Positions 1,475 through 19,804 of a stretch of DNA of 22,566 nucleotides are shown piece by piece. The stretch is taken from IMG/VR virus record IMGVR_UViG_3300025120_000614, positions 1 to 22,566 of that record, one strand, 5' to 3'. How positions within the stretch are numbered: the first letter of the stretch is position 1; each line of letters starts with the position of its first letter. Source of the stretch: a virus. The position numbers and the translations under genes were made by a program. Below the pieces are notes generated by a model, which searched no databases, had not been told where the DNA came from, and saw only the letters and a program-made list of their open reading frames with translations.

Positions 1475-1544
1475 TATCTTGTCCCTACAAACGGTAAATA
1501 TACTAGATATGGGGTTGCGTCATACAAACGCTCCCCATTTTTTT
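1475..1544. other. Intergenic gap between nuclease and primase-helicase genes
   Basis: Seventy bases without a gene. It holds a GC hairpin with a nine-T tail that reads as an intrinsic terminator on the plus strand (separate entry), plus the AGGGA ribosome binding site of the primase-helicase gene. No convincing leftward promoter was found. Confidence 0.6.
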
Positions 1545-1546
1545 TT
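1509..1546 (+). terminator. Intrinsic terminator pointing rightward, against the operon
   Basis: The plus strand shows ATGGGG (1509-1514) and GCG (1517-1519), a loop, then CGC (1529-1531) and CCCCAT (1533-1538): a 9-bp stem with an asymmetric internal loop. It is followed by nine T residues (1538-1546). On the minus strand the A run precedes the stem and no T run follows, so only rightward RNA would be terminated. No rightward gene lies to its left within the window. Confidence 0.6.
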
Positions 1547-2327
1547 ATTCGTCCCAACAAGATTCACGGTATTCGCAGAACTTGCAGAGAAAAAAGTCTT
1601 TGCTTTGAGCGATACGAGGTAGAATGTCACCTGATTTTGCAGCAGTCAAGATATTCACGGCTCGGTCACTAGCTTGTTGAGCTAAAGATGCGTTGTACGG
1701 CACTAGCTCATAATAAATTTCTGATGTGTTTTTATTTACTACAGAGAACAAAGCAGGATGTTCGGTTAGCTCCATATACGTTTGATACAAAGCTATCTGA
1801 GTTGCGTAAGTTGGGTTCGCTTTGGTAACGCCCATGTTTACAAACGTTCTAAACTTTTTATCGTTTGATGATTTGTTTTCCCACAGTGACGGGTAGCCCA
1901 TTTCAACTGGACCTTCACAAATCACGCCATCTATATGACCTCTTATTTCGCCATCAGCGATAGAGAAGCCAAACTGTTCACCCATCTTATCTTCTGTGCG
2001 TAGATCAAACCCTGCATCGCGTATCCATTTAGCTGCATAGTCTTCGATGTTATGACCAAACTGAAATATGCGCAGTGTTCGTGCGCTGAACTCTTTGTCA
2101 GGATCAACAGGGTAATTTAGATAGCGATACTGTATCTTGCGTTGACATTCATCACCGATACTAGACGCGCCAATATACTTACGGCGTTCACGTTTCTTCT
2201 CGCCTGCGACGATAGCATTATCAACTGCTGCCTTAATGTGTTCTACAATCGGGTCTTCTTTAGAAGGGGATTGATGTAGAAGGCCAAGAGCCTGTTGACT
2301 TATAGTAAGTTTCTTCGAGTTTTCCAA
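1545..2327 (-). CDS. Cas4/RecB-like PD-(D/E)XK nuclease with Fe-S cysteines
   Basis: Probable DNA exonuclease of the PD-(D/E)XK superfamily acting in phage recombination or replication. Numbering from TTG at 2327 (260 aa), visible elements are H92 in GHNIEDYAA, D133 in RGHIDGVI, E150 and K152 in LWENKSS, and Q177 in YATQIALYQ, i.e. the H-D-ExK-Q order of RecB-type nucleases. One Cys (C61, GDEC) before the core and three at the C-terminus (C248, C251, C257 in CKFCEYRESC) match the 4Fe-4S cage of Cas4 and AddB nucleases. The frame also allows a TTG at 2333. The TTG at 2327 is preferred because GGAGA lies six bases before it; no ATG precedes the conserved region. It overlaps the preceding small gene by about 68 nt. 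No cas1 or cas2 is nearby, so a CRISPR role is not supported. Confidence 0.85.
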   Translation of the reverse strand: MENSKKLTISQQALGLLHQSPSKEDPIVEHIKAAVDNAIVAGEKKRERRKYIGASSIGDECQRKIQYRYLNYPVDPDKEFSARTLRIFQFGHNIEDYAAKWIRDAGFDLRTEDKMGEQFGFSIADGEIRGHIDGVICEGPVEMGYPSLWENKSSNDKKFRTFVNMGVTKANPTYATQIALYQTYMELTEHPALFSVVNKNTSEIYYELVPYNASLAQQASDRAVNILTAAKSGDILPRIAQSKDFFLCKFCEYRESCWDE

Positions 2328-2484
2328 TGTCAATCTCCGCTGCTAGACGTTGTGATTCCTGTATGCCAAATATCAGAGTGTGAACTTGCTCTTCTGATAG
2401 ATCAGAAAAACGTGTGTCCCATCCAAACTTGCCTAATATGTGAGCCAATTCTTCGATTGGCTTTGGTTCTGGTGGTATTGTCAA
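2260..2484 (-). CDS. Small conserved phage protein, unknown function (TTG start)
   Basis: I do not recognise a named family. The 74-residue product has a Pro-rich start (PPEPKP) and then looks helical (LAHILGKFGWDTRFSDLSEEQVHTL), with no Cys or membrane segment. The reality of the gene rests on its start: TTG at 2484 overlaps the upstream stop as TTGA, with GGAGG/GGAG eight bases before it, so translation is likely coupled. Its last 23 codons overlap the nuclease start in another frame. It lies inside the replication operon, so a helper role in replication or recombination is possible but not shown. Confidence 0.6.
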   Translation of the reverse strand: MTIPPEPKPIEELAHILGKFGWDTRFSDLSEEQVHTLIFGIQESQRLAAEIDIGKLEETYYKSTGSWPSTSIPF

Positions 2485-2771
2485 TGTATTGTCTCCTCCC
2501 TTATGCCGAACAATTCTATTATTTCACCGACCTCATTTGGGTCAGCGTCTTTATTTCGAAAGCCTATACTTAAAACTTCCTTACCTTTTACCATAATTAA
2601 TGCTGTTCCAAACAAAACAGGATTTTCTGCTTCGTTAAGATGAATTTGTATTGCTTCGTTTGCTACGTCCTGAACTTCTTGCAAGTCATTTGGATCATTG
2701 ACCCAACAAATCATTTCGATTTCGGACGCTTCGACATTACCATCATCGTCTTCTGCAAACATAAGATACAT
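2481..2771 (-). CDS. Conserved hypothetical protein of the replication operon
   Basis: A 96-residue acidic protein of unknown function. The sequence reads as alternating strand and helix (MYLMFAEDDDG, EMICWVNDPNDLQEVQDVANEAI, VLFGTALIMVKGKEVLSIGF), compatible with a small alpha/beta fold. The frame is open further upstream to 2816, but ATG at 2771 is preferred: GAGG sits just before it, and it falls one base after the stop of the preceding DUF6378-like gene (TGA-A-ATG). An earlier start would give an unneeded 44-nt overlap. Its stop overlaps the TTG start of the next gene. No catalytic motif is visible. Confidence 0.65.
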   Translation of the reverse strand: MYLMFAEDDDGNVEASEIEMICWVNDPNDLQEVQDVANEAIQIHLNEAENPVLFGTALIMVKGKEVLSIGFRNKDADPNEVGEIIELFGIREETIH

Positions 2772-2772
2772 T

Positions 2773-3075
2773 TCAAACCTCGGCATCTGGGGCGTCCTTA
2801 CTCGAAAATTCTCCACCCAGAGAAGAGTACGCTGCCTTGTCTACCCACGAGTCTGAGTGATCTATTTTGTTTAGGATACGCGAAGTTTTTAGCCAGTCCA
2901 TCATTAATGCAACATGCGTAGGGGTAATCTCCCCGTGTGATATAAGTGCGCTGCGCAAAATAATATTCCAACCCTCTGCAATTCTGTCGTGATTGTCGTA
3001 AGCCTCACCATAGTCTTTGGCCCTTTCGCCATTGACTAGACTTTCTGCTTGCCTCAAGAACTCTTCTCTTTTCAA
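2773..3075 (-). CDS. DUF6378-like phage protein (TTG start)
   Basis: About 100 residues resembling the DUF6378 family common in phage genomes: ERAKDYGEAYDNHDRIAEGW, then GEITPTHVALMMDWLKTSRI, then HSDSWVDKAAY. The molecular role is unknown to me. The all-helical pattern with conserved E, D and H residues recalls MazG-like nucleotide hydrolases, which is only a loose inference. The frame is open upstream to 3132, but TTG at 3075 is the better start: AGGAG ends eight bases before it, it overlaps the helicase stop as TTGA, and family similarity begins right after it. Confidence 0.72.
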   Translation of the reverse strand: MKREEFLRQAESLVNGERAKDYGEAYDNHDRIAEGWNIILRSALISHGEITPTHVALMMDWLKTSRILNKIDHSDSWVDKAAYSSLGGEFSSKDAPDAEV

Positions 3076-4748
3076 TGTAATTTCTCCTGCGCTGCATGAA
3101 ACGCTTTGCCTAGAGCGTCTTTGTTCCAACAAAAACTCAAAGCACAGCCTGCTTTGTATTTAGTCCACGAGAAGTCCATTGAACTGATATGAATGTCGTG
3201 ATCCATTAACAGGTTCTTTTGTTTCTCTGTGGCCCTGTTATTAAGCCAACGCTTCGTTTTATTTGCTGCATCGCTATCTTCAATCTCGCGTAAGAAATCA
3301 TCGGCTGCTGACATAGCATGCACTTTTTCACCAATCGCTACTGTGCGAACACGGCCTTTTTGTGATTTTACCATAGCGACCCACATATCATCTTTGATGT
3401 GACCTACAAAGGCGAATCCCTGAAAGCCCATAGCCATCAGTGCATTGCCCTCTTGAAATGGGCTAATCCACATGAAAGGTGATAACTGCATCAGATCGTA
3501 TTCAGTCATGATAAACTGTTCGAGCGCAGCTTTCTCTTCTGCTACAAACTCATGACCGCAGATCGGACACACTGTTAAACGCGCATGAACCTCTGCGTTG
3601 CATTCAGGACAAGTCTTTGTGGGTGCTTCGCCCTCAACCGTTTTGTCTCTTCCATCTAGGTTAGCTGCATCATCAATACTGCCATGCGTAATGACAGACG
3701 TACCAAAGTCCATAACGATGCAATCAGTCTTGATTGTGTCTGGATATAACTCAGGATCAACGATGCGTAGTCCACGACCAATCATCTGCACCATTGTACC
3801 CTTCTGAGAGCATGGGCGCGTTAGAATGATACAAGACACAGGTGGAGCATCAAACCCCTCTGTAAGCACCGCTACGTTGACCACAACCTGTAAATCACCA
3901 TGCTCAAGGTCATGGAGCATCTCTGCTCTTTTATCTTTTGGTGTTTCACCTGTTACAAAGTTTGCATCAACACCAGATTCAAGAAAGGCTGCACAAAGAT
4001 GTTCAGCGTGTTTGACTGTTGAACAGAACACAACAGTCTTGCGATCCCCTGCTTTTTCTTCCCATTCACGAACAATTCTATCGTTAATGACTTGGTGATC
4101 CATAATCGCGGCGACCTCTTCCATGTCATATTCTTTGCCGCGTTTTGTGACGTTATCTAATTGATCATTGATACCCAGATCGACCACAAAGGTTTTGGGC
4201 CGAACCAGAAATCCCTCTTGGATTAACGCACCGATTTCGATTTGATGTGCGCAGTTGTTGAACACAGAGCGCAATCCTTTGCCATCACCACGATTAGGTG
4301 TAGCTGTAAATCCTACAATCTCTGCACTGTCGTTGTCTTCAAGCACGGCATCAATCACACGGCGATACGTTCTTGCCGCTGCGTGATGGCCTTCATCAAT
4401 CACCACCATGTCGAACTTGGGGCGCTTGGCTAGGTTGCGTTCACGAGAAATAGTTTGCACCATTGAGAATACGGCATCGCCATCCCAATGCTTGACTGTA
4501 CCGTTCACAATACTTGTTGTGATGTACGGGTTCACCTTTTTGAACTTGGATTGGTTTTGCGCAACAAGTTCATCGCGGTGCTGCACGATAAGAATTTTTT
4601 TACCTTCTTTGTGCCGCTTGCCTACAAGCGCAGAAAGCATGATCGTTTTGCCTGCACCCGTTGGTGCAACGACTAGAGTATTGCCGTGTTTGTCGAGAGC
4701 TTTTAGAGCATCGCTTACGGCTACCTCTTGGTAGGGACGTAGTAACAT
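3072..4748 (-). CDS. Superfamily 2 DEAD/DEAH-type helicase with zinc ribbon
   Basis: ATP-dependent nucleic-acid helicase or translocase of the phage replication machinery (558 aa). Visible SF2 motifs, in order: Q-like motif LRPYQ at residue 3; Walker A APTGAGKT at 28-35; DEGHH from 118; TATP at 148-151; TEGFDAP at 296-302; and motif VI QMIGRGLR at 321-328. A four-Cys zinc ribbon follows (C380, C383, C394, C397) and then about 160 residues of unassigned C-terminal sequence, plausibly for DNA or partner binding. The architecture is that of phage UvsW/RAD25-like helicases. The ATG at 4748 has AGGTG upstream. Its stop is shared as TTGA with the next gene. Upstream lies the 92-bp structured gap, which would form part of its leader or separate it from the SSB-like gene. 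Confidence 0.9.
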   Translation of the reverse strand: MLLRPYQEVAVSDALKALDKHGNTLVVAPTGAGKTIMLSALVGKRHKEGKKILIVQHRDELVAQNQSKFKKVNPYITTSIVNGTVKHWDGDAVFSMVQTISRERNLAKRPKFDMVVIDEGHHAAARTYRRVIDAVLEDNDSAEIVGFTATPNRGDGKGLRSVFNNCAHQIEIGALIQEGFLVRPKTFVVDLGINDQLDNVTKRGKEYDMEEVAAIMDHQVINDRIVREWEEKAGDRKTVVFCSTVKHAEHLCAAFLESGVDANFVTGETPKDKRAEMLHDLEHGDLQVVVNVAVLTEGFDAPPVSCIILTRPCSQKGTMVQMIGRGLRIVDPELYPDTIKTDCIVMDFGTSVITHGSIDDAANLDGRDKTVEGEAPTKTCPECNAEVHARLTVCPICGHEFVAEEKAALEQFIMTEYDLMQLSPFMWISPFQEGNALMAMGFQGFAFVGHIKDDMWVAMVKSQKGRVRTVAIGEKVHAMSAADDFLREIEDSDAANKTKRWLNNRATEKQKNLLMDHDIHISSMDFSWTKYKAGCALSFCWNKDALGKAFHAAQEKLH

Positions 4749-4840
4749 AAAACACCTGTTCGCTAGAATTGGTGGGGGGATTGCGGCCCTCTGCCCCCCG
4801 GTCAGAGGTCTAGCAGGCGCGGATTGGCCCTGCCGCTAGA
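4749..4840. other. GC-rich, repeat-built, highly structured intergenic element
   Basis: A gap of 92 bases, far more GC-rich than its surroundings. On the plus strand it contains TCTAGC-A-GGC (4809-4818) opposite GCC-GCTAGA (4832-4840), a 9-bp stem with one bulge. It also contains CCTCTG (4788-4793) opposite CAGAGG (4803-4808), whose loop holds CCCCCC (4794-4799) complementary to GGGGGG (4774-4779). Stem plus loop pairing could form an H-type pseudoknot. Parts are repeated: GGATTG followed by GCCCT and GCC occurs at 4778-4795 and again at 4821-4834, and CCTG followed by CGCTAGA occurs at 4756-4767 and 4828-4840. No T tract follows on the minus strand, so it is not a simple terminator. Replication origin, RNA regulatory element or protein-binding site are all possible. 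Confidence 0.65.
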
Positions 4841-5464
4841 TTATCTTTGCGCCCAAGACGGAACACCACCAGACGATTGAGGCTGCGTAGGTGCAGCTTG
4901 CTGAGTGGTTTGCGCTGCTACAGGAGTCTGTTGCATTGGCGCTTGTCCGCTTGGAACGAATTCCCGCGAATTAGGTGTTAAAGCTACGGTCAAGCAATTG
5001 CTATCACTGTAGCCGTTAGTCCCTTTCTTAATACCAACTTTAGCACAAATTTCCATAGCATTTAAGTCAAAAACTCCAGAAATATTTCTTGCCTGTTGCG
5101 CTTCTGCCGAAACGTCCGCAGGATCAATGTTACGCGCACTCTCAACAAGTGATTTTAATGTGCGTAAACCAATCTCTTTGGCTTGTGGAATACCGCTTTG
5201 ACCCATCTTGTCACCATCGACAAAGACGCGATCCCAAAACTTACGGCGATCAAATTCACCACCAATAATGGTAAACTCAAGTTCCATCCACTTAGCCGCA
5301 GAAGTCGCTGACTTTTTAAACCAAGGTCCAGAACCAAATTCTGGAACTTCGGTGTCACCTTGCTTTACAAGGACAACTGCACGGCAAACTGTGCCTTTAG
5401 GAATTAAAGAAAACTCACGATCCTGTGGGTTATCATCGGCGGGTACGTTATTTAAATTAAGCAT
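4841..5464 (-). CDS. DUF669-like single-stranded DNA-binding protein
   Basis: Likely phage SSB-like protein protecting single strands during replication and recombination. The 207-residue product begins LNLNNVPADDNPQ and contains the block PKGTVCRAVVLVKQGDTEVP, followed by KWMELEFTIIGGEFDRRKFWDR, typical of DUF669 proteins. The body looks like a beta-rich OB-type fold. The last 40 residues are Gln/Pro/Ala-rich and flexible, ending PSWAQR, so the acidic tip of bacterial SSB is absent. The frame is open to 5509, but ATG at 5464 is preferred: GAGGA lies upstream, conserved sequence starts there, and it overlaps the stop of the upstream ATPase gene by 8 nt (ATGCTTAA). Sitting next to a Sak4-type ATPase supports a recombination role. 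Confidence 0.75.
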   Translation of the reverse strand: MLNLNNVPADDNPQDREFSLIPKGTVCRAVVLVKQGDTEVPEFGSGPWFKKSATSAAKWMELEFTIIGGEFDRRKFWDRVFVDGDKMGQSGIPQAKEIGLRTLKSLVESARNIDPADVSAEAQQARNISGVFDLNAMEICAKVGIKKGTNGYSDSNCLTVALTPNSREFVPSGQAPMQQTPVAAQTTQQAAPTQPQSSGGVPSWAQR

Positions 5465-6329
5465 TTTGTGCTTCCTCTTCGCTAGAAGTTTGTGTTGCAG
5501 GATCAACAAATGTTAAATCCCTTGGTTGATCAGAAGAGCTACCAGACATCTTTTCCATCAGCTTGCCTAGATGCGGCTCTTCCAAAGTTTCGAGGCGACC
5601 AGAGCGATCTTTTGCAGGGTAGCCCCATTCATTCAATGGCTGACAGATAAACGCACGATACTGACCGTGATCACCTGACAGGATTGCCATTGTAATTACT
5701 TCGTCAACAATTCCGGGCAATTCACGCCCTGTCTTGCTGCCTTCAATTTGCAGCGCATATTGCTTGCGTCCATAATCATCTGTGATTTCATCAAGAATGC
5801 CAACAAAAATTACATTCTTTGTACGAATGTGCTGAAGGTGTGTTAGCCATGACATCATTTCACGCCCATGCATTCCATAGGCTGCGCGTGTGTCTAGCTT
5901 TCCAGAACGCTCAGAGCGTGTTTCTGGTTGCTGTAAGCACCACTGAAAGCACAAACGCCCTGCGACAGTAATAGAGTCTACAAACAGACTATCAAACTTG
6001 TCCCAAATATCTGCGTTGTCTCCATACATTTTAGCAACGTAATCGTAATGCGCTTGGCTGTATGGCTGATCTTCTGACAGTGATGGGTTAGCACCACCTA
6101 AGAAGCAAGCTAAGTCACGGCATTCAGTCCATGTACGCGGACGAATCACATCAATTGGGTAGCCTTCGATAGCGGCATCCCCTGCTTCTAAGTCCATAAA
6201 CAATGTAGTTTTTGGATCAAGAGTCCTAGCAAGTGTGGTTTTACCCACACCGCTTGGTCCACACACCACGATTTTGTGGCCCTTCTTTTCAGCTAAACGC
6301 TGATCGGCTGTGATAATTTGTAAAGCCAT
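5457..6329 (-). CDS. RecA-like AAA ATPase of the Sak4 / AAA_24 type
   Basis: Probable single-strand annealing or recombination ATPase (290 aa). Walker A is GPSGVGKT at 24-31. An acidic strand, TTLFMDLEAGD, follows at about 41-51. Walker B is FDSLFVDSI at about 112-120. A RecA-type strand, NVIFVGILDEI, lies near 170. The C-terminal region with PGIVDEVITMAI fits phage AAA_24 proteins, which are often annotated 'ATP-binding protein' and include Sak4. ATG at 6329 overlaps the upstream stop as TAATG, and GGAGG lies before it. The direct partner gene downstream is the SSB-like protein, the usual arrangement for Sak4 systems. Confidence 0.82.
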   Translation of the reverse strand: MALQIITADQRLAEKKGHKIVVCGPSGVGKTTLARTLDPKTTLFMDLEAGDAAIEGYPIDVIRPRTWTECRDLACFLGGANPSLSEDQPYSQAHYDYVAKMYGDNADIWDKFDSLFVDSITVAGRLCFQWCLQQPETRSERSGKLDTRAAYGMHGREMMSWLTHLQHIRTKNVIFVGILDEITDDYGRKQYALQIEGSKTGRELPGIVDEVITMAILSGDHGQYRAFICQPLNEWGYPAKDRSGRLETLEEPHLGKLMEKMSGSSSDQPRDLTFVDPATQTSSEEEAQNA

Positions 6330-6727
6330 TATTCTACCTCCTCAATAGTAAAGCCACCAACTTCTACGGTACGGCATGGTTCGAGAGTTGCCTTGATTGC
6401 AGGTGGGGCTGCTGTGTATTTACGCTCTTCAACTGCAAGCGTAATTTTTCCATAGTGACGCGCATCTTCTTCAGGCATGGACTGTAATACAGTGCCAAGT
6501 TCTTCCTGATCCCACACAACCTTTTTGCGGACCGTAGCTTTCATTTTACGATTGCCTGCAATAATGTATGTAGTTCCAAAGTCTTTACCATCTGCGCGTA
6601 ACGCATCACTTACTTGAGTAAAGAAGGTATCATAGATTTGTTCATCAACGTTTTTGAGTTCATCACGCATTTCACTAATGACATACTTGAGTTCCTCTCG
6701 ACGCTCAAAAAGTTCACGACTGTTCAT
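6329..6727 (-). CDS. Conserved hypothetical, first gene of the replication operon
   Basis: A 132-residue protein of unknown function. Residues 1-45 are a charged heptad-like helix (RREELKYVISEMRDELKNVDEQI), likely a coiled coil. The rest contains a basic strand (RKMKATVRKKVVWDQEEL) and a C-terminal beta-like tail. One Cys, no membrane segment and no enzyme motif are seen. It is preceded by a good ribosome site (GGAG eight bases before the ATG) and by the candidate early promoter and operator at 6762-6790, so it would be the first protein of the regulated leftward operon. Its stop overlaps the ATPase start (TAATG). Confidence 0.7.
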   Translation of the reverse strand: MNSRELFERREELKYVISEMRDELKNVDEQIYDTFFTQVSDALRADGKDFGTTYIIAGNRKMKATVRKKVVWDQEELGTVLQSMPEEDARHYGKITLAVEERKYTAAPPAIKATLEPCRTVEVGGFTIEEVE

Positions 6728-6761
6728 GTCGATTCTCCGCTGTTAAGTTACTAGAACCCTA

Positions 6762-6790
6762 TCTATCCCACATGGCTTGGGATATGTCAA
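6762..6790 (-). promoter_or_regulatory. Candidate leftward early promoter
   Basis: On the minus strand a perfect -35 TTGACA (6790-6785) is followed by a 17-bp spacer and a weak -10 GATAGA (6767-6762). TG stands one base upstream of the -10, giving an extended -10. The leader to the ATG at 6727 would be about 27 nt. The -35 overlaps the stop codon of the DUF1064-type gene. The spacer is covered by a perfect palindrome. Confidence 0.55.
6764..6784. promoter_or_regulatory. Operator-like palindrome O1
   Basis: Perfect inverted repeat TATCCCA-N7-TGGGATA lying between the -35 and -10 of the leftward promoter. Its right half GCTTGGGAT and the CCCAC junction recur in the second site at 7120-7140 with the same 7-bp spacing. 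This suggests one DNA-binding protein acting at both promoters. Confidence 0.6.
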
Positions 6791-7161
6791 CGACTTTTTT
6801 TAGATAAAAATATTTCTATGCCAAGGCATGCCTTCATTAATTTCTTTTTTAGTTTAAATTCAGGGGTTTCTACACCCTTGGCATCCTCGACCACTTCATA
6901 CCAGTCACCGTCTTTGTTTTGCTTCTGGTATCTGAAGTCAGCAATGTAAGCACAAATCTTTTCGTCATTGACCATAAGATTGTATCGCACTTGTAGCTCC
7001 AAGTCCTTGACCGTCCCTGCGCGTTCTAGTGATTTAATATATAAGTAACGCTGTGATTCCCACTTAGAATCGAACTTAATTCCTTGCACAGTTACTTTCT
7101 TATTACCGTACTTGGGTCTTGACCCACGCCGCTTGGGATTATATACAGTAGTAAACGTCAT
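6787..7161 (-). CDS. DUF1064-type nuclease (PD-(D/E)XK, resolvase-like)
   Basis: Probable small structure-specific endonuclease (124 aa) of the DUF1064 phage family. KYGNKKVTVQGIKFDSKWESQRY is followed by AGTVKDLELQVRY, AYIADFRY, VVEDAKG and KLKKKLMKA. Candidate PD-(D/E)XK residues are E35, D75, E92 or D93, and K95. A role in branch resolution before packaging is inferred from the fold. ATG at 7161 lies only 18 bp from the divergent regulator's ATG. Its own Shine-Dalgarno is poor, with GGAGG 13 bases away. Because it lies upstream of the candidate leftward promoter, it must be read from late-gene read-through or from a promoter I could not identify inside the regulator gene. Confidence 0.75.
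   Translation of the reverse strand: MTFTTVYNPKRRGSRPKYGNKKVTVQGIKFDSKWESQRYLYIKSLERAGTVKDLELQVRYNLMVNDEKICAYIADFRYQKQNKDGDWYEVVEDAKGVETPEFKLKKKLMKACLGIEIFLSKKSR
7113..7126. promoter_or_regulatory. Second inverted repeat over the regulator's -35
   Basis: Perfect inverted repeat TGGGTC-TT-GACCCA. It overlaps both the -35 TTGACC and the left arm of operator O2, so it offers an alternative or additional binding register built from the same GGG/CCC half-sites. Confidence 0.4.
7119..7147 (+). promoter_or_regulatory. Promoter of the ribbon-helix-helix regulator gene
   Basis: The plus strand carries TTGACC (7119-7124), a 17-bp spacer and TATACA (7142-7147), a near-consensus sigma-70 type promoter. 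The predicted start is near 7154, with a leader of about 26 nt to the ATG at 7180. The whole promoter lies inside the 5' part of the oppositely read nuclease gene. Confidence 0.65.
7120..7140. promoter_or_regulatory. Operator-like palindrome O2 (imperfect copy of O1)
   Basis: Contains GACCCA-N7-TGGGAT in the regulator's promoter. Aligned with O1 (6764-6784) it matches at 15 of 21 positions, including CCCAC and GCTTGGGAT, with identical half-site spacing. Its position over the spacer predicts repression by steric block, most simply autorepression. Confidence 0.55.
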
Positions 7162-7179
7162 TTATGGGAAGGAACCTCC

Positions 7180-7398
7180 ATGCCAAAACCTGAAAAATAC
7201 AAATCAGTCGGTATATCAATAGACGCGTATCAAAAACTGATCTTCATTGCCGATCAAGAAGATCGTGCTTTGGGTAGACAGTTATCACGCATGATTGAAG
7301 AATCATACGAAGATGTTCAGGAACGTGTCAATAGTAAGCGCGGCTATCAACCCGCTGCTGTAGGCATAGGCGGTATAACTACAGTCATCGAAGACTAG
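7180..7398 (+). CDS. Ribbon-helix-helix (Arc/CopG-type) transcriptional regulator
   Basis: The only rightward gene in the window (72 aa). Residues 7-13 (YKSVGIS) form the expected DNA-contacting beta strand. Helix A is about 14-28 (IDAYQKLIFIADQED), the turn is RALG, and helix B is about 33-46 (RQLSRMIEESYEDV), giving the RHH dimer fold. The C-terminal 20 residues are Gly-rich and probably flexible. The start has AAGGA seven bases before the ATG. It has its own promoter (7119-7147) and its own terminator (7423-7458), so it is a monocistronic unit. It stands at the junction of the virion and replication modules, and matching operators at both nearby promoters suggest it represses itself and the replication operon. 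An antirepressor or antitoxin-like role is a weaker alternative; no toxin gene is adjacent. Confidence 0.82.
   Translation: MPKPEKYKSVGISIDAYQKLIFIADQEDRALGRQLSRMIEESYEDVQERVNSKRGYQPAAVGIGGITTVIED
7395..7398. other. Shared CTAG giving both stop codons of convergent genes
   Basis: CTAG is its own reverse complement. Bases 7396-7398 read TAG for the rightward regulator, and 7397-7395 read TAG for the leftward virion gene. The two genes therefore end on the same four bases with no intergenic space. Confidence 0.9.
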
Positions 7399-10259
7399 AG
7401 AAGCCCTGCGTTACCTAAACCACCCAGTAGTGTTGCTGCCACTGCTGGGTTTTCTTTTGCGCGTTGTCGAATATTAGAAAAATCAGGAACGTCAGATATT
7501 TCTACCGGGGCAACATCAGGAACTGGCATAGTTGTTCGGCTTACTGGCGCTGGTACCGAAGATACTCTACGATTTTCTAAATCACGAGCTATATTGGAAG
7601 CGCCTTCTTTCATGGAACCTACAGTTCCTACGGCTACTCTCATACCTTGTTGTTTTGCAAAAGATTTACTGGTGTCGTTTAAAACTCTTAAAAACACTTG
7701 CATTTTACCAGCTTTAGTTTTTTCTTTTGCCGCTTCTTTTCCATACCGTGCTGCGAAAGATGTGTAGAACGGACCAGTAGACAAGAACTGACCGATTAGA
7801 CCAAGACGAGCAATTGTTCCTAAATTTTCTAATGGATTAGCAGCAATATTAGCCGCAACAAGATCACCGCCTTCAGCAGATGCGCCAAGAACTTTCATGT
7901 TTTGACCAAATAAAGCGATAGAATCAGCTTCTGCTTTAGGAAATAAAGCTCCTAGTTTACCAGATTTTTCAGCCCGTAAAAGGCGTTCTGATAATTGTTT
8001 AAAGGCTTTTTTGTCTGTCATAAAGCTATGCTCAAAATCACCTATAAGGTTTTGCATATAGTATGATTGTAACTCAGCTAACTCTTCAGGTTTATCTTTA
8101 AAAAACTTTGAAAGTTTTGTAATGTCATTACCTTTGACAGATGGGCTTGCCAACAAGTCTGCTGCTTCATCTGGCATCAATGATCCTGCACGAATTTTTC
8201 TAGCCATTGCCGCAGAATCAAACTGTGCTTTTTCTTTCATAATGTCTTTTACATTACGCAATAAATTCACACCAGCTTCGTCACCACCCTCTTCTACGAA
8301 ATCATCAATAACACTTTGATTTACTCTTGTTAAAGATAAAGTATCCATTTGGTCTGCCAGCCTACGAACTTCTGAAATTCGTGACCCGAACAATTCATCG
8401 GCTGTACCGCCTAAATCATCTAATTTTTGTTTAAATTTGCTTCCGCTAAATTTTCTTGTTGCATCTAAAGTTGAACCTGATTCACGCATTGTTTTACGCA
8501 ACCATTCAGAAGCCGCACGTTCTCTTAGCGTATTAAAAGCGTCTTTTCCTAAATTTTCCTCTAAAACTTTTTTAGCATCTTGAAGCAATTTTGGATTATC
8601 GTTTTGTATAAAACGACCATATGCACCTTTTGGGTTTAATTCTACGCCACCTTTAACAGAGTTTTGTAAACTTTTTATACTAGCCGCCGATGAAACTTTT
8701 TCAAAGCTGTCCATGCCTTGTTTAAAGAAACTACGAAGTTTTGGTATTTCATTAGAAACATCTTTAAAAAGTTTCTTTTGTTCGGCTGTTAAATCACCAG
8801 CCGCTTTTCTCCTCATAGCATTGTTGACAGAAGTAGGAGATATAAAATCATCTAGCTTATTGAGAAACTTGTCTTTCATTAACTTAACACTGTCAGAACC
8901 GTAGTTACCCATCCAAGTGTCATTAAGAGTTTTTCTAGCCTTGTATACTTGAGTAAAAGAAGCATCATCAGGTAATTGCATAAGCTCTCTTACAGCATCA
9001 CGAGATTTTCCAAGATTTCCTGATCCAGCCGCTACCAATCTATCAAGCTCTAATTGAGCGTCAGATTTTAATGCGCGAGTATTAAATAGCGCGGTATCAC
9101 CAACTGCACTGTTTGTTAAATTTTCAAGGTTAGCAAATTTTTCTTTTACTTTGTCATCAAAGGCTTTGTATGCGCCAACAAATGCCCCTTGTATGTCAGC
9201 GTTTAGTGCGTCATCTTTTTTTGCAGCTTTTCCTATTTGAACAGCAATGTCATCCATGTGTTTAATTAAATTATTAGATGCAGTCTTTTCAGCTTGAAGC
9301 AATGCATTATCACCCGCTGCTACAGCGTTTGTTAGAATAGCAGCAGTAGCATCTATATCTACACCACCATCAGCGCCATAAGCGCGTAACTTTGCCAAAT
9401 CTGACATAATCTTTTCATGATTTTGACGTAATCTAGCAGATGTACCTAGAGCCTTCTCACTCATTGCCTGTTGACGGGCTACAAGAGAATTAGCGCCCAT
9501 AGCAGATAATGAAGGCTTATAGCCAGATTTAATAGCAGTAGCGACCTCTTCCTGCGTTTGTGGAGCTAACTTGCTACCTGCACGACCACGACCTACTGCG
9601 AATCCAAAAGATTTGCCAATTGCACCAAATACACCTTCACCAGCAGCGGCTATAAGAGCTTCAGTACCAGCCGCCTTACCAACATCAAGAAGGCTTTCTT
9701 CCTGTGTCCCTCTTAGCGTTTCTACGCCTTCTTCGACTAACTTACCACCTCCAGCACCTAAACCTGCACCAATAGCAGCACCTAGTATTGGAATAGGAAT
9801 TGCAGCCTGTCCTGCTATAGCACCGCCAATACCACCTACAATTTCTTCACCAGCCGCGCCTACAAAGTCTTGTAAATCAGACAAAGTAAACCCGCTTTCA
9901 TCAATCATAATCGGCTTGTCAGTCTCTATGCCAAGCAAAAGTGCGCCTTTTGGAGTGATCGCTAAGTCTCCACGATCATCTCTCATATAATCGCCTTCTC
10001 TAAAACCATAGCGACCTAAGACATTTTCTTCTTCTTTTTCTGTCTCAGCGCCTGCTAACTGGCGTCTTAGGCGATTATTTTTTATTCCAGTTTCTCTGTC
10101 TATTGGTGTTTCATCTCTAATGGCTAATGGTGAAACTGAACGTTCCATTTTTTTAATTAAACGTTCGGCTTGCAACATTTCAGGATACGTTGGTTTTTCT
10201 CCTTTAATTTCAAAAGGAATAAACTCGCCGGGTCTAATTTCAAGTTGAATTTCAGGCAT
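7395..10259 (-). CDS. Large internal virion / ejection-type protein
   Basis: A 954-residue protein, probably an inner-virion protein released with the DNA. After a polar N-terminus (to about 125) comes a Gly/Ala-rich zipper-like stretch at about 132-225, with repeated GxxxG spacing (GGIGGAIAG, GAAIGAGLGAGGG). Such stretches are typical of membrane-inserting ejection or tape-measure proteins. Most of the remainder is long charged helix with coiled-coil character, and a Pro-rich tail (APVSRTTMPVPDVAPVE) lies near the C-terminus. No lytic transglycosylase or protease motif was recognised. It is the last gene of the structural block, as for gp16-like ejection proteins of short-tailed phages. ATG at 10259 has AGGA upstream. 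It ends in the CTAG that also gives the stop of the convergent regulator gene. The assignment is from composition and position only. Confidence 0.6.
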   Translation of the reverse strand: MPEIQLEIRPGEFIPFEIKGEKPTYPEMLQAERLIKKMERSVSPLAIRDETPIDRETGIKNNRLRRQLAGAETEKEEENVLGRYGFREGDYMRDDRGDLAITPKGALLLGIETDKPIMIDESGFTLSDLQDFVGAAGEEIVGGIGGAIAGQAAIPIPILGAAIGAGLGAGGGKLVEEGVETLRGTQEESLLDVGKAAGTEALIAAAGEGVFGAIGKSFGFAVGRGRAGSKLAPQTQEEVATAIKSGYKPSLSAMGANSLVARQQAMSEKALGTSARLRQNHEKIMSDLAKLRAYGADGGVDIDATAAILTNAVAAGDNALLQAEKTASNNLIKHMDDIAVQIGKAAKKDDALNADIQGAFVGAYKAFDDKVKEKFANLENLTNSAVGDTALFNTRALKSDAQLELDRLVAAGSGNLGKSRDAVRELMQLPDDASFTQVYKARKTLNDTWMGNYGSDSVKLMKDKFLNKLDDFISPTSVNNAMRRKAAGDLTAEQKKLFKDVSNEIPKLRSFFKQGMDSFEKVSSAASIKSLQNSVKGGVELNPKGAYGRFIQNDNPKLLQDAKKVLEENLGKDAFNTLRERAASEWLRKTMRESGSTLDATRKFSGSKFKQKLDDLGGTADELFGSRISEVRRLADQMDTLSLTRVNQSVIDDFVEEGGDEAGVNLLRNVKDIMKEKAQFDSAAMARKIRAGSLMPDEAADLLASPSVKGNDITKLSKFFKDKPEELAELQSYYMQNLIGDFEHSFMTDKKAFKQLSERLLRAEKSGKLGALFPKAEADSIALFGQNMKVLGASAEGGDLVAANIAANPLENLGTIARLGLIGQFLSTGPFYTSFAARYGKEAAKEKTKAGKMQVFLRVLNDTSKSFAKQQGMRVAVGTVGSMKEGASNIARDLENRRVSSVPAPVSRTTMPVPDVAPVEISDVPDFSNIRQRAKENPAVAATLLGGLGNAGLL
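7423..7458 (+). terminator. Intrinsic terminator of the regulator gene, inside the opposing gene
   Basis: CCCAGTAGTG (7423-7432) pairs with CACTGCTGGG (7440-7449) in a 10-bp stem with one G-U pair and a 7-nt loop, followed by TTTTCTTTT (7450-7458). It begins 24 bases after the regulator's stop codon. The bases also encode PAVAATLLGG of the opposing virion protein. There is no T run in the leftward direction, so it is one-directional. Confidence 0.8.
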
Positions 10260-10261
10260 TG

Positions 10262-12241
10262 CTATTTCCTAACTAACTTACCATCCACAAATACAAGTGA
10301 ACCTAATCCTTTTAAGTCTTCAAAAGTACCATACTTTTCAACAATGTTATCGTAAGTTCCTTCTTGGTGATTAGATGGATCAAGCAAATCTTCAAGAGCA
10401 TTGTCAAAATCATTTTGTTTTGCACCAAAAATTTGATCAAGGCCATCAAGAGCATTCAATGTTGCATCAAGGTTTGTAAAGAAACCAATGTTACCCATCA
10501 AATCATCTGTCCACATTTCAACGTCACGATTTGAAATGCCGTTACCAGTCTCTTGTGTAAGGAAACGCTTGTATTGGTTAAGTAGCTTTTTAGTTTCGTA
10601 GTTATAGTCCTCGACATCGGTTGGTTCACCCGTTAAATACTGTGATGGAGCAATAGCTTTCATCAAACCGTGTAGCTTTTGATATGCTACCTGCACAGTA
10701 CCACCGCCCTCTGCAATTTCAGTTGCAGTTGTACGCAATGCTGAAATTGTTTCACGCGCGTCAACAACGCCATCACGACCTAAAACATGCTTACGAATTG
10801 CAGCTTCAGGTTTTAAATAAAAGCCGCCATTCGGGTTTTTGGAATCATAGACATATGGTATTTTCCATGAATCTGACGAACCCTGTCCGTCCACAAACTT
10901 ACGATCTTTGGTTTTGCTGTAATCACCACCAGTTGTTTGAGCCTTCAAAATTTCTAACTGTGCATCTATATTTGCTTTGGAGTCTTGTTCTTTCATTTTT
11001 AAGTCAGAGGCATACCATTTAAGGTAAATTTCTTTTTGAAAATCTTTATTGGCTGATGCTGATGCTAATTCAGCATCAACATCTGCTCGACGTTGTTGCA
11101 ATGCATATTTACCCGCTGCAAGTTGAGCAGCTTTTGAATCCGCAGTTGCTTTATCTAAATACGGCATAGCAGCCTCACCTGCTTCGCCAAGTGCTTCAAG
11201 CGCACCACTAAACCCTTTACCACCTGCTTTATTCTTTAATAAAGCAAGACCCCAAGCCTGTAACGCACGACTTTTATCAATTTTGCCACTTGCATCTATT
11301 CCTGTAGCTTCTTCAAATTCTTTTCTATAACGAGCTATAGCGTCTTTTTTTGACTCACTTTTACGAGGCGGAGAGTCTGATACATCTTTCATAGCTGCAA
11401 AAAATGCATTATAAGCAGCGTCAGGTCCAAGAGAAATACTTTTTCCTCCTGTATCTTTAGCATTTTTTTCTTTTTGAGCTTTTAAATATGCTGCCCGTTC
11501 ACCGGGTTTTTCTACAATATCTCCACGACCACCTGTCAATATAGCCTCTAAAGTTTCCGCAGGACTTGGCGCAGCATCTTCTAACTTTGGTTCTATTTTT
11601 TTATCTTTAGGTTTAGCATCTAGCCTAGTAAGAAGCTCCCCAATTTCGTCCAAAGCAGATGGTTGAAATGCAGCTTCTTCTCCAAGCAATTCTCGTGGAG
11701 CAAGAAGTGCTGCTTCATTTGCAAGAATTTCACGCTCAGTTATGTTTCCAACGTTTTCAAATCGACCCGGAACTGCCATATCTTGTATAGAACGATAAGC
11801 CTTTTCCATTTCTGAAATATCTTCTTTGCCAAAACCAAACTGTTGACCGCCTTTAGACATAAAAGGGCCACCACCACCGAAAAACCCACCTTCGTCTGGA
11901 ACCAAGCCTTCGATTGGTATAGATAAACCTTCATTTTCCATAGTTCTTTCAGATAGATCGTTTAAATATGCCCCAAGAGCGTCTTGGTTTTTAAAATCAA
12001 GATTATTTTTTAACTCTTCAAATGCATAATAACGACTACCCGGCCCTCTTGGAATCTGAACAAATGTTCCCGCTGCTTCGGGTCCTTCTGCTGCAAAAAG
12101 ACTTCTAAGATTTGCAGCTTGTTGTGGTCCTGTAAGTGCTTTTTGTTTATAGCCTAAACCTTGGTTTAACACATTTTTGCGAGTAGGATTGTTTTCGCTA
12201 TATCTTTGCGCTACCTGATTATATCTTTCTTCGGGAGTCAT
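10262..12241 (-). CDS. Probable internal virion protein, unknown family
   Basis: A 659-residue protein, not recognised. It begins TPEERYNQVAQRYSENNPTRKNVLNQG, has a Gly-rich patch (GGFFGGGGPFMSKGGQQFGFGKED) at about 160-185, and contains long charged helices (KEKNAKDTGGK, KKDAIARYRKEFEEATG). No membrane segment or enzyme motif is evident. The frame extends two codons upstream to a GTG at 12247. ATG at 12241 is preferred because AGAGG lies five bases before it, making the GTG part of the ribosome site region. It sits between two other Gly/Ala-rich virion-type genes (6-12 nt and 2 nt spacing), so a shared role in the inner virion or DNA ejection is inferred. Confidence 0.55.
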   Translation of the reverse strand: MTPEERYNQVAQRYSENNPTRKNVLNQGLGYKQKALTGPQQAANLRSLFAAEGPEAAGTFVQIPRGPGSRYYAFEELKNNLDFKNQDALGAYLNDLSERTMENEGLSIPIEGLVPDEGGFFGGGGPFMSKGGQQFGFGKEDISEMEKAYRSIQDMAVPGRFENVGNITEREILANEAALLAPRELLGEEAAFQPSALDEIGELLTRLDAKPKDKKIEPKLEDAAPSPAETLEAILTGGRGDIVEKPGERAAYLKAQKEKNAKDTGGKSISLGPDAAYNAFFAAMKDVSDSPPRKSESKKDAIARYRKEFEEATGIDASGKIDKSRALQAWGLALLKNKAGGKGFSGALEALGEAGEAAMPYLDKATADSKAAQLAAGKYALQQRRADVDAELASASANKDFQKEIYLKWYASDLKMKEQDSKANIDAQLEILKAQTTGGDYSKTKDRKFVDGQGSSDSWKIPYVYDSKNPNGGFYLKPEAAIRKHVLGRDGVVDARETISALRTTATEIAEGGGTVQVAYQKLHGLMKAIAPSQYLTGEPTDVEDYNYETKKLLNQYKRFLTQETGNGISNRDVEMWTDDLMGNIGFFTNLDATLNALDGLDQIFGAKQNDFDNALEDLLDPSNHQEGTYDNIVEKYGTFEDLKGLGSLVFVDGKLVRK

Positions 12242-12253
12242 AGGCACCTCTTG

Positions 12254-13549
12254 TTAACCGCTAAAACCTTGCATTGTTGAATACGCTCCAACACCCTGCA
12301 AGAATGGGTCTGCTGATGTTTGTGGACCTTGTGTATATTGACTATACATAGACGCCGATGGCGCTCCAGTTAGGAAGTTCTGTGCGTAGCTAAACGGAGC
12401 AAGTGCTTGCTGTGTTGTGTTTAATGTATTTTGACGCGTAAAGTCCTGTCCTTGTTGAGCGTACTGACGTTCTTTGCCACCAAGCTCATACATAAAGCCA
12501 AGGTCAGCAGGTTGCATGCCTGCATACACACGACCAATATCAGCAGATGTACCCGCTAATTTGCCATAGGCTTGACCTACATCAGCTTGCGCACCGCCTA
12601 ACTGACCGTATGTTTGTCCTAATCCACCTGTAAGGCGTCCTGCCTCTAGGTCACGTTTCTTTTCGTTTTCAGCGGCCCCTAAACCACGTTTGGCTGCATC
12701 CTCAAAGGCACTTGATTCTAAAGTTGCTCCAGATGCACCCAACTTACCTGTAAGACCAGAGGCTTGTAATGCACGTTTGCGCTCTGCTTCGTCTGTAGCC
12801 ATCGCATTTGCCATCGACTTATCATAGCCCTTTGACAAAAGGTTGGCGATAGTACCTTGCTTGGTTTCTTCAATAGCGCGTTGCGTTTCTGCGGCCTGAA
12901 TGCCTGAACGAGAGCCACCAAAAGCACCTGCGCCAACTGCCCTAGCTTGATCAGCTTGACGTTGCTGCGCACCCTCACGGGTAATTTTCTTCATAGCAGA
13001 GTCAATGACCTGCTGCTTGTAAGGGTCCATAAAGTCTTCAACTGAGCTTGGATCGAAGCTACCAAGACCCTGTTCAGCTAACTCAAATGCACGGCCTGTT
13101 CTGCGGTCAAATGCTTCTTTAGCGCCAAACTGACCACCTGCATCAACAGAACCGCGTCCAGCTTCTAAAGCTGATTTGGCATCTGGGAAGTAATCAGTAA
13201 GAGCTTTTGCCATAGTAGCTTGGCCCGTGCCTAAACCACTTGCTGCGTCAGGTAAGTAACGAGGAGTTCCTGATGCGTCTTGAAAATAAGGTAGGTAACG
13301 ATCCATAAACTGTTGACGTTGCGTTGCATCGCCAAGTGTACTTGTTACGGCTGACTGAAGAGGATCAGTGCCTGCTTGAACATAATCTGGAATTTTAAAT
13401 AAATCAGGGTATTTAGTTGCGTCTAAAATGCCACCCGAAAGAGTGCCACTCCCGTCATCTTGCCCAAATATCTTACCAAGTAAGGCTAAATCTAAGTCTT
13501 GAATATATTGTGGACGAGAAGTTATTACGTTTTGTGTGGTTTCAGTCAT
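12254..13549 (-). CDS. Ala/Gly-rich virion-associated protein, probable internal protein
   Basis: A 431-residue protein. The central block GAQQRQADQARAVGAGAFGGSRSGIQAAETQRAIEE and the following Ala/Gly/Gln-rich helical stretches (GLTGKLGASGATLESSAFEDAAKRGLGAAEN, GLGQTYGQLGGAQADVGQAYGKLAGTSADIG) are of a kind I associate with inner-virion proteins of marine podovirus-like phages. The repeated G-x-L-x(2-3)-A pattern suggests amphipathic helices that may insert or assemble. The C-terminus is Gln/Tyr-rich and low in charge. ATG at 13549 overlaps the stop of the upstream gene (TAATG). Function is inferred from composition and position. Confidence 0.6.
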   Translation of the reverse strand: MTETTQNVITSRPQYIQDLDLALLGKIFGQDDGSGTLSGGILDATKYPDLFKIPDYVQAGTDPLQSAVTSTLGDATQRQQFMDRYLPYFQDASGTPRYLPDAASGLGTGQATMAKALTDYFPDAKSALEAGRGSVDAGGQFGAKEAFDRRTGRAFELAEQGLGSFDPSSVEDFMDPYKQQVIDSAMKKITREGAQQRQADQARAVGAGAFGGSRSGIQAAETQRAIEETKQGTIANLLSKGYDKSMANAMATDEAERKRALQASGLTGKLGASGATLESSAFEDAAKRGLGAAENEKKRDLEAGRLTGGLGQTYGQLGGAQADVGQAYGKLAGTSADIGRVYAGMQPADLGFMYELGGKERQYAQQGQDFTRQNTLNTTQQALAPFSYAQNFLTGAPSASMYSQYTQGPQTSADPFLQGVGAYSTMQGFSG

Positions 13550-14559
13550 TACGCTATATCCTCTAATTTATCCATCATACCATACATTTTCTGAATACCT
13601 TGATTTAAATTACCATTGCCAGCGCCTTTTACCGCGTCACGAGTCATAACAAACTCGCCTGCGGTTAGCATAGCAGGAACATCGTCTTTTGTACCAGAAC
13701 CTTCGCTTGGCATAATACCACCATCACGGCGCGGGAAATATGTTGCGCCGCCTTCATTTAATCTCATAACATCACCTAGCTTAACCCTTGTAGGGTCTGC
13801 CATTGCTTCAGCGTATGTTTGATTTGAGCGCCTTGCAGCGCGATCTAAATCAGTCTCTTCGTAATCTTTACCAAATACAGAATCTAGCAATTGAGAACCA
13901 AGACCCATAGCAATAGCCTCACCTGCTTTGTTGTTTAACAATCTACCAATGCCCTCATCTGGATTAAGATTAAACAAATCACCTATACCCAACAAGCCTT
14001 CTGCACGTTCGTATTTAGGCTTTTTTAGTTTATCTTCAATAATCTTTTCAGTAAGCGCGTCAGCTTTGCCACCACCAAATGAGCTTAAATTTGGCTTTCC
14101 TACATTTGGAACATCTGTATCCATGCCAAACAAGGCACCAAGACCAGAATCACCACCTGACATATAGCCCAAACCACCGCCTGCAATACCTCCAAGCAGT
14201 GCATCACGCAAAGATGGCTTGCCTCCAGTAAGTGCTTGTAACGCAACGTTACTTATAGCGCCCTGAACGATAGGGTTGCTAAAGAAGTTACCACCGCCAC
14301 CACCAATAAGTTGAGAGCCAAATTTAATTATTTTATCAATAAAGAACTCAGGCTCACCCGTCACAGGGTTAATGCTATTTTGACCAGAACCAACAGTATA
14401 ACGCATTGGATCGGCACCTGCATCGGCAAAAGCCATACCCAAACCACGCGCAACTTCAGGGCTACGTTGTAGAACTTCAGGGGGTACAACCATTTCGCCC
14501 GGAGCAACGTGCGCCATCATTGTATCACCGTTTCTACCGTATTGTGCCATGCCTTGCAT
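13549..14559 (-). CDS. Gly-rich virion protein with paired PGEMVV / AGEFVM motifs
   Basis: A 336-residue protein likely acting in the tail or inner virion. The N-terminus carries HVAPGEMVVPPEVL (about 17-30) and the C-terminus carries the related DDVPAMLTAGEFVMTRDAV (about 292-310). Motifs of this kind recur in phage tape-measure and internal proteins. Between them lie Gly-rich segments (GSQLIGGGGGNFFSN, LLGGIAGGGLGYMSGGDSG) with zipper-like spacing. ATG at 14559 has GAGG eight bases upstream. It heads the group of virion genes that are joined by overlaps or short gaps down to 7395. Whether it is tape measure or ejection protein cannot be decided here; it is short for a tape measure. Confidence 0.6.
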   Translation of the reverse strand: MQGMAQYGRNGDTMMAHVAPGEMVVPPEVLQRSPEVARGLGMAFADAGADPMRYTVGSGQNSINPVTGEPEFFIDKIIKFGSQLIGGGGGNFFSNPIVQGAISNVALQALTGGKPSLRDALLGGIAGGGLGYMSGGDSGLGALFGMDTDVPNVGKPNLSSFGGGKADALTEKIIEDKLKKPKYERAEGLLGIGDLFNLNPDEGIGRLLNNKAGEAIAMGLGSQLLDSVFGKDYEETDLDRAARRSNQTYAEAMADPTRVKLGDVMRLNEGGATYFPRRDGGIMPSEGSGTKDDVPAMLTAGEFVMTRDAVKGAGNGNLNQGIQKMYGMMDKLEDIA

Positions 14560-14611
14560 ATTAAAACCTCGTGACCGCTATATATAAGTTACCAAATCTT
14601 TACATAAATTA

Positions 14612-14836
14612 CTAGAGTGTTGACCCAGAAATAGCTTCAGGGGCAGTTACAGTTATACTTGTGCTTCTTTTTTCGCTTCCTGTCCACGGATTATTGCACT
14701 CTGGACAGTTACCATCTGGGTAGCTTGCAATCTCTTCTGGCGTGTCAACTGCGTTATCGCAGCTTGCGCAATGCACCATATCTGTACTTGAGGAAGGTCG
14801 CCATTTAGACCCATCTGGCATTGTAATAACTGTCAT
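14612..14836 (-). CDS. Small zinc-ribbon protein in the virion gene cluster
   Basis: A 74-residue protein with CASC (C23, C26) and CPEC (C44, C47), a classic four-Cys zinc ribbon, flanked by a short start (MTVITMPDGSKWRPSSS) and a Ser/Thr-rich tail. The function is unknown. It could be a DNA-binding or structural mini-domain used in assembly. ATG at 14836 overlaps the upstream stop as ATGA, so it is translated with its neighbour. A 52-nt AT-rich gap separates it from the next virion gene; that gap holds TATATA but no good -35. Confidence 0.7.
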   Translation of the reverse strand: MTVITMPDGSKWRPSSSTDMVHCASCDNAVDTPEEIASYPDGNCPECNNPWTGSEKRSTSITVTAPEAISGSTL

Positions 14837-15129
14837 GATATTGTCACCGTAGCAAAGCCCACCTGTCCTGTTCCTTGTAAACCACGAACATGTGGGGTGT
14901 TGAGTTCAGCGACCTTTAAAGAGCCGCCATGATTAAAGACACCACCTAGCTCTAAGCCGCTGTCATCCGTTTGTAATCCTGTAAATACCGTAAACGTGTT
15001 ACGGCCTTCGCCTGCGTTTTGCATTTGTTCTAAATAAGTAGAGTAAGATCGAACAAGTTCAGCAAAATACTGATAATCATATTCTTCAGGCGGTACGGGA
15101 AAAAATGGTAATGTTAAGTTTCTGGACAT
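14833..15129 (-). CDS. Small conserved virion-associated protein
   Basis: A 98-residue protein beginning SRNLTLPFFPVPPEEYDYQYF and ending GLQGTGQVGFATVTIS. I have seen this pattern (NLTLPFFP, then a Tyr-rich helix, then NHGGSLKVAELNTPHVRG) as a conserved hypothetical next to tail genes in marine phages; no function is known to me. The first half is helical, the second beta-rich. ATG at 15129 overlaps the tail protein stop (TAATG), and GGAGG stands just upstream, so it should be expressed with the tail protein. Confidence 0.7.
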   Translation of the reverse strand: MSRNLTLPFFPVPPEEYDYQYFAELVRSYSTYLEQMQNAGEGRNTFTVFTGLQTDDSGLELGGVFNHGGSLKVAELNTPHVRGLQGTGQVGFATVTIS

Positions 15130-17498: not shown

Positions 17499-17580
17499 TC
17501 AACAATCTCCTAATACCCGAATTATACATATTTCAAACAATTGTTCGAGTTATATTTTTAAAAACAATAAACCGAACATT
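17499..17580. other. AT-rich gap between endolysin and tail protein genes
   Basis: Eighty-two bases, very AT-rich. It holds inverted arms TGTTCG (17542-17547) and CGAACA (17573-17578) with a long loop, a self-complementary AACAATTGTT, a TTTTTAAAAA palindrome and a perfect leftward TATAAT (17526-17521). No T-tailed GC stem is present, so no terminator is called. Confidence 0.5.
17521..17526 (-). promoter_or_regulatory. Candidate leftward -10 for the virion gene block
   Basis: A perfect TATAAT on the minus strand, 23 bases before the tail gene start and just ahead of its AGGAG site. The bases 16-18 further upstream do not match a -35 (ACTCGA/CTCGAA). It is therefore a weak call: it may need an activator or be chance in AT-rich DNA. 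Confidence 0.3.
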
Positions 17581-18219
17581 TTATGATAGCCATCCATATA
17601 TTTTTTTAGTTTTTTCTAAGCGGTCATCTAAGCCATGAGTCCCACCATTTACACGGCGCGTAACCTCTGTAATTACATCGTCGTTTACACCCTTATCTGC
17701 TATTTTAAAAAGCCCATTACGTTGAAAAAACCAGTACGCGCTTTCAAATGCGTACTCTGTAGCCACAAGATCAGGTTCCTTCATTACGTCAGGTAAACGC
17801 ATTTCTGATGCAAACTTTCGGTAGTTTGTACGGCCCGTGCATTGCAAAAATCCTCGGCCTCGGAAAGCGAAACCGTCATTTTTCTCAACATTTCCAAGCG
17901 CACCGCCCTTCGATCTGTGTTCATCCATATACACATAGTTGGCGATCTTTTGCGGATTACGCGCATACTTAGATGCGTCCTCTTTACCTTCACCAAAATA
18001 ACGACCAAAAACACGATTTAATGCGTCTTCAGAATAATTAAGATTTTCTTCAGTTAACTTAAAATAACCACTTTCATGCGCAGATTGACCAAGTAGATGA
18101 GCCGCACGTTCTGGCGATAGCTCATAGTGTTGAGAAATTGCTTTTGCAGTATTAGGTCCAAAAGCCCCATCTGGGGCTACTCCGCAGCGTTTCTGCAAGG
18201 CTTTCATTGCGTTACTCAT
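17581..18219 (-). CDS. Endolysin, GH19 chitinase/muramidase-like with N-terminal wall-binding segment
   Basis: Peptidoglycan-degrading enzyme that ends infection by cell lysis (212 aa). Residues 6-28 (KALQKRCGVAPDGAFGPNTAKAI) look like a short peptidoglycan-binding_1 repeat. The GH19-type catalytic domain follows: AHLLGQSAHESGYF with candidate acid E49, EENLNYS with E58 as candidate base, and GFAFRGRGFLQCTGRTNYRKF, a strongly conserved block. There is no signal peptide, so export needs a holin, consistent with the holin genes just upstream. ATG at 18219 overlaps the stop of the small membrane gene (ATGA). Substrate is inferred to be cell-wall peptidoglycan rather than chitin because of the phage context. 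Confidence 0.88.
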   Translation of the reverse strand: MSNAMKALQKRCGVAPDGAFGPNTAKAISQHYELSPERAAHLLGQSAHESGYFKLTEENLNYSEDALNRVFGRYFGEGKEDASKYARNPQKIANYVYMDEHRSKGGALGNVEKNDGFAFRGRGFLQCTGRTNYRKFASEMRLPDVMKEPDLVATEYAFESAYWFFQRNGLFKIADKGVNDDVITEVTRRVNGGTHGLDDRLEKTKKIYGWLS

Positions 18220-19719: not shown

Positions 19720-19804
19720 TCCTGTTTGTCCGAATAAGTCCCTATTTGGTAATATTGTAAACGATCTGTACTAATAAAATGTAAAAAAACTAAAACATAA
19801 ATCA

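Follow-up and report, generated by a model that had tools for sequence, protein, structure and literature searches.

The window (the whole stretch of DNA that was analysed, a virus record of 22,566 bases) carries recognisable genes that all run leftward, with replication genes on its left (for a nuclease, a Sak4-like protein, a helicase, a Cas4-like exonuclease and a primase) and virion and lysis genes on its right. The gap between two leftward genes is filled by the sole rightward gene, an ORF (7180–7398, plus strand) for an RHH-like protein of 72 amino acids which is here proposed to be an autoregulator. It is flanked by the nuclease gene (6787–7161, minus strand; DUF1064/PHROG 190, Holliday junction resolvase), which hosts the rightward promoter PR, and by a gene for a protein of 954 amino acids (7395–10259, minus strand; the 954-aa gene), which lies directly upstream of the leftward replication genes and hosts the terminator of the rightward unit. 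The stop codons of the regulator ORF and the 954-aa gene overlap, while the Shine-Dalgarno sequence of the regulator, GGGAAGGA (plus strand), overlaps a TGGGAA element at 7165–7170. The 954-aa protein matched no PHROG, nor any Pfam family above the cut-off, and its putative virion role is inferred from gene position. The locus would represent a control node where the virion module meets the replication module, in an uncultured marine phage family known only from metagenomes.

Relatives were collected by IMG/VR searches with the 72-aa protein (8 loci), the 954-aa protein (34 loci) and the nuclease (best 80 of 317), and all 113 loci from these first searches contained a match to the regulator. 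Further scans yielded 219 loci with a full ORF, two of which were left out for short flank, and these comprise 98 unique sequences when compared across the ORF plus 100 bases before and 62 bases after it. Loci with an incomplete ORF or with the start off the contig (L008, L012, L096, L099 and L112 among them) were left out of the counts. The regulator gene occurs, at the same place, in each of the 98 unique relatives that have a complete ORF and enough flank. As the loci overlap heavily (with one contig repeated), unique sequences were counted, yet these are related and the counts do not represent independent events; the parsimony tests applied to third codon positions at PR and at the leftward promoter PL correct for kinship only roughly.

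The rightward promoter, the overlapping array and the proposed regulator protein

PR (7119–7147, plus strand) is composed of TTGACC (7119–7124) and TATACA (7142–7147) separated by 17 bp, with an expected start near 7154. The earlier note had described it as near-consensus, and while a conserved site is indeed present, this label is generous for a match of 9/12 (5/6 at the -35 and a poor 4/6 at the -10). The promoter scan did not list PR, since it demands a T at the last position of the -10. It is conservation that leads us to judge PR genuine despite its modest score: TTGACC-17-TATACA is exact in 95 of the 98 unique relatives, the exceptions seen having TATAAA or TATAGT at the -10. Two of the 98, which lack the alignment anchor, have CATATATGGG here and a -10 of TATAGT, and were left out of the 96-row anchored alignment. 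The claim of a sole rightward gene with a promoter inside the 5′ end of the nuclease gene is thereby confirmed; the self-contained rightward unit of ORF, PR and terminator is real, and its ORF and promoter are not products of chance.

Comparison of relatives had been proposed as a check that the promoter bases are kept beyond what the opposing codons require, and it bears this out. In nuclease codons 6–9 and 12–16, which span both PR hexamers and the dyad described below, third positions changed on average 0.11 times, as opposed to 8.17 in codons 17–118 (tree of 85 unique rows). Additionally, 62 degenerate nuclease codons keep their amino acid throughout 81 unique sequences; seven of these are codon-invariant, and all seven lie inside codons 6–16 (hypergeometric p 7e-8). 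These patterns support the view that the bases of the predicted promoter are kept far beyond codon needs. T7-type RNA polymerase (PF00940) was not found in any of the three records searched, with T7 as positive control, and host-type promoters are therefore expected. Pieces of other genomes carry comparable sigma-70-like sites (spacers of 16–18 bp) ahead of genes of similar size: in two genomes TTGACC-18-TATA(G/A)T precedes a gene of 315/313 aa by 20 bp, and ATGACA-16-TATAAT precedes one of 112/104 aa. Both are likely other promoters of this phage family, the sites being at L114 14971–15000, L119 5942–5971, L115 8933–8960 and L118 12236–12263.

The PR -35 is overlapped by a perfect dyad, TGGGTC-TT-GACCCA (7113–7126), which is exact (TTGGGTCTTGACCCACG) in 90 of the 98 unique relatives. 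Its left arm varies in 8 of the 96 anchored rows, while CTTGACCCA (7118–7126) is invariant in all 96. A third TGGG element and the PR -10 are contained in TTGGGATTATATACA (7133–7147, plus strand), and TTGGGATTATATA is equally invariant (96/96), as is TGGGAA (7165–7170, plus strand), a possible further half-site, with the limit that the anchor itself contains TGGG. The direction alternates from TGGG at 7113 to CCCA at 7123 and back to TGGG at 7134, in steps of 10 and 11 bp, and another TGGG starts at 7165. Alternating spacing of 10–11 bp suits small dimeric repressors. The constraint on the array extends to bases that a promoter would not need, and the dyad over the PR -35 looks like a candidate operator. 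In the nine longer records it is single-copy when no mismatch is allowed, and nothing independent therefore links the regulator protein to the array; elsewhere in these nine records there were only copies with two mismatches, i.e. no regulon sites beyond chance-like ones.

A single-copy, invariant dyad at a module boundary could also be expected of a replication-origin or packaging site, in which case the protein would be an accessory factor binding this site and the promoter match would be incidental. We regard this as very improbable, since the invariant bases correspond to a -35 and a -10 placed 17 bp apart and correctly positioned ahead of a Shine-Dalgarno sequence and an ORF, and since the window's GC skew shows no sign change at this point.

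The regulator protein has 29 of 72 residues invariant among 27 members. Profile matches to the RHH class were sub-threshold: Pfam RHH_7 matched 4 of the 27 members without significance (best E 0.13), a PHROG Arc-like repressor profile matched one of 27 (E 0.14), and HP0222 (1x93) aligned over profile positions 12–52 (E 0.15). Similarly, the alignments with P22 Mnt (12–42 to 12–42, gap-free, p 0.039) and P22 Arc (17–32, p 0.072) were marginal, while two other P22 proteins, serving as negative controls, gave one aligned column each. We take 1x93, Arc and Mnt to be RHH proteins. The AlphaFold monomer model (mean pLDDT 63.5), which is of little informative value, has one long helix (14–55) and not a strand-helix-helix arrangement. 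These sub-threshold but co-linear matches are suggestive only, and we describe the protein as RHH-like without assigning it as an RHH member.

The terminator and the end of the 954-aa gene

The intrinsic terminator of the rightward unit (7422–7460, plus strand; stem 7422–7450) lies inside the 3′ end of the 954-aa gene and consists of ACCCAGTAGTG-TTGCTGC-CACTGCTGGGT followed by TTTCTTTTGC, with 11 pairs including one G-T. It is the strongest terminator-like site listed in 1–20000 (folding −18 kcal/mol, z −2.89), and synonymous resampling of the virion codons produced an equal hairpin in only 1 of 10,000 cases and a stem of 8 bp or more in 10 of 10,000. The terminator claimed at this place by the earlier note is thus upheld in the window; however, its conservation is partial, with a stem of 10–11 pairs kept in 52 of the 98 relatives and falling below this in the other 46. 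Five or more T follow the stem in 32 relatives. Constraint on the stem, which had been proposed as a check, is evident within one C-terminal allele of the 954-aa protein, PAVAATLLGGLG: the stem is kept in 43/43, and the stem codons are CCA in 43, GCA in 43, GTG in 42, ACA in 43, CTA in 40 and CTG in 40 of these 43, while two loop codons vary. Several other C-termini have stems of as few as 3–9 pairs. The predicted terminator is, on this comparison, real and selected where present, while being neither universal nor needed everywhere.

The last ~20 codons of the 954-aa gene (7395–7480 and the corresponding parts of relatives) appear as swapped alleles (PAVAATLLGGLG, PYIAS, PALAS and others), and such mosaic C-termini suggest recombination at the gene end. 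A leftward terminator-like hairpin was observed at the end of the 954-aa homologue in some of the 98 rows (10 bp in ten rows and 7 bp in three; L030, L176, L183 and others).

A predicted facing promoter inside the regulator gene

PL (7302–7331, minus strand; TTGACA-18-TATGAT) is located inside the regulator gene and faces PR, with an expected start near 7295 and directed toward the nuclease and replication genes. With 11/12 it is the best promoter-like site in 1–20000, in a scan whose site total (39) equals the shuffled expectation (39.1). At this place, 51 of 75 unique ORFs carry a site of 10/12 or better, whereas synonymous recoding gave 3.8 per replicate on average and at most 8, under a null that ignores shared ancestry. 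Every one of the 71 sequences in the window's clade, which is defined by G or E at regulator residue 5, has the -35 TTGACA, as opposed to none of the 27 outside it. Within the clade, codon 49 changed six times each at positions 1 and 2 and not once at position 3, an inverted codon grain which implies that such hidden promoters can be found by sequence alone. The four third positions within the PL hexamers changed 0, 3, 0 and 0 times against a mean of 6.97 (p 0.00015, 68 unique rows), the tree being derived from the nuclease alone and the clade selected with knowledge of where PL is retained; with all 92 rows included, the test is weaker (p 0.022). Third positions of regulator codons 2–12 and 28–30 (7183–7215 and 7261–7269) also change little. 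Among 24 scanned rows without PL (three TTTACA rows were left out), no substitute leftward promoter was found at a shared position. In the window's clade, PL would drive the nuclease and replication genes. Facing conserved promoters with overlapping predicted transcripts, a feature of 186/P2-type switches, are found here at the level of sequence.

As PL lies inside the regulator gene, the opponent of PR would be the replication operon and not only the late genes. The earlier note had placed the collision between the regulator and late leftward transcription, as a bistable or timing switch, and had missed PL. Late leftward transcription could indeed cross the unit, since the neighbouring genes are leftward and, in 85 of the 98 relatives, the 954-aa gene has no leftward terminator-like site close to its end. 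That such read-through is the main opponent nevertheless seems quite unlikely to us: the window's clade has kept a dedicated promoter facing PR, a leftward terminator-like hairpin does occur in 13 of 98, and antisense crossing by itself is common to any opposed gene. Bistability is unsupported, as no integrase match (PF00589) was obtained in 9/9 records, some of which may be fragments, while the control matched in 14/14; timing is the more plausible role.

PL is absent in 27 of the 98 relatives, and face-to-face promoters are therefore not essential to the family. Since the other clade keeps PR and the array without PL, collision would be a trait of the clade and autoregulation a trait of the family. 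Retention of PR and the array where PL is lost would also suit a plain autorepressor, in which PR, array and protein form a feedback loop, PL is an ordinary replication promoter placed where there was room, and interference is negligible; moreover, compact genomes force overlaps. We consider this unlikely, given that no second exact dyad was found in the 9/9 records, and hence no other target that would explain a purely trans-acting regulator, and that the geometry makes each transcript cross the opposite promoter. The likeliest reading is a collision between the regulator promoter and the replication-operon promoter, combined with autorepression, rather than chiefly one between regulator and late genes.

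A proposed control node and its known counterparts

The ORF, both predicted promoters and the array are conserved elements at the DNA level, and the terminator is one in part of the family. We favour, with slightly better than even confidence, a compact control node in which PR drives an autorepressed regulator, a head-on PL serves the replication genes and the terminator limits PR; firing, binding and timing are what we infer. PR would give rise to a short mRNA for the small, RHH-like putative DNA-binding protein. The most likely binding site of this protein is the TGGG/CCCA array that covers the -35 and -10 of its own promoter, and binding there would shut PR off. The expected starts of PR and PL are ~140 bp apart (about 141), so that head-on RNA polymerases from an active PR would depress PL. 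Autorepression would then free PL, resulting in a delay before the replication genes are expressed, and the arrangement probably times their start; alternatively, the bound protein may obstruct PL transcripts, forming a roadblock within nuclease codons 6–16. The terminator would keep PR transcription out of the remaining 954-aa gene. A replication timer of a lytic phage, encoded almost entirely in overlapping coding sequence, with head-on PR and PL and a bound array that also serves as a roadblock within the opening codons of the first replication gene, is a possible but rather doubtful extension of this node. The locus is a clear example of how promoters and a terminator can persist within opposing genes despite codon drift, and it suggests that promoter collision could determine when replication genes are expressed in a phage that has no apparent lysogeny module.

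The immI region of Salmonella phage P22 is similar by annotation, having a small Arc repressor gene with an operator (14798–14818) over its own promoter (14793–14821) and a facing antisense promoter, sar (15097–15125, minus strand), just downstream of arc. However, sar produces a short antisense RNA with its annotated end (15021) at the end of arc, whereas transcription from PL, which is internal to the regulator ORF, would continue into the replication genes; P22 proteins are at best marginally similar to the regulator, and P22 has an integrase. Lambda is temperate. Its convergent pR and pO likewise engage in cross-talk that affects phage replication, although the abstract describes neither a regulator gene nor an operator array beneath the opposing promoter (PMC3985674). 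Opposed promoters with transcriptional interference are also described for coliphage 186 (pR/pL) and P2-like phages, where face-to-face pairs interfere, not always reciprocally, and sites of the 186 regulator Apl are spaced 10–11 bp (PMC7498355). The lytic and lysogenic promoters there are 40–60 bp apart and use other repressors. Here, in contrast, the expected starts lie farther apart, no integrase was found and the opponent would be the replication operon. A roadblock protein is reported to change interference modestly in wild-type cells (PMC6593788).

Convergent phage promoters are already known; among the papers listed by a literature search, none was found to describe this regulator unit. 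Among 50,697 phage records there was no DNA match to 6500–9500, and no tblastn match to the 72-aa protein (E 0.1) or the 954-aa protein (E 0.01), while a protein from a relative, searched with E up to 10, gave two chance-like matches. L114, a relative of 56 kb, has a terminase that shares ~60% identity with its counterpart in Pelagibacter phage HTVC027P, in whose annotated stretch (18000–57595) no such unit was seen, as judged by product names. One genome contig with the unit (L123 5939–6243, WTIQ01000492.1) has the same PR block and a regulator protein that is 48% identical; it is binned as a Rhodobacteraceae MAG, a weak hint that Rhodobacteraceae may be a host lineage.
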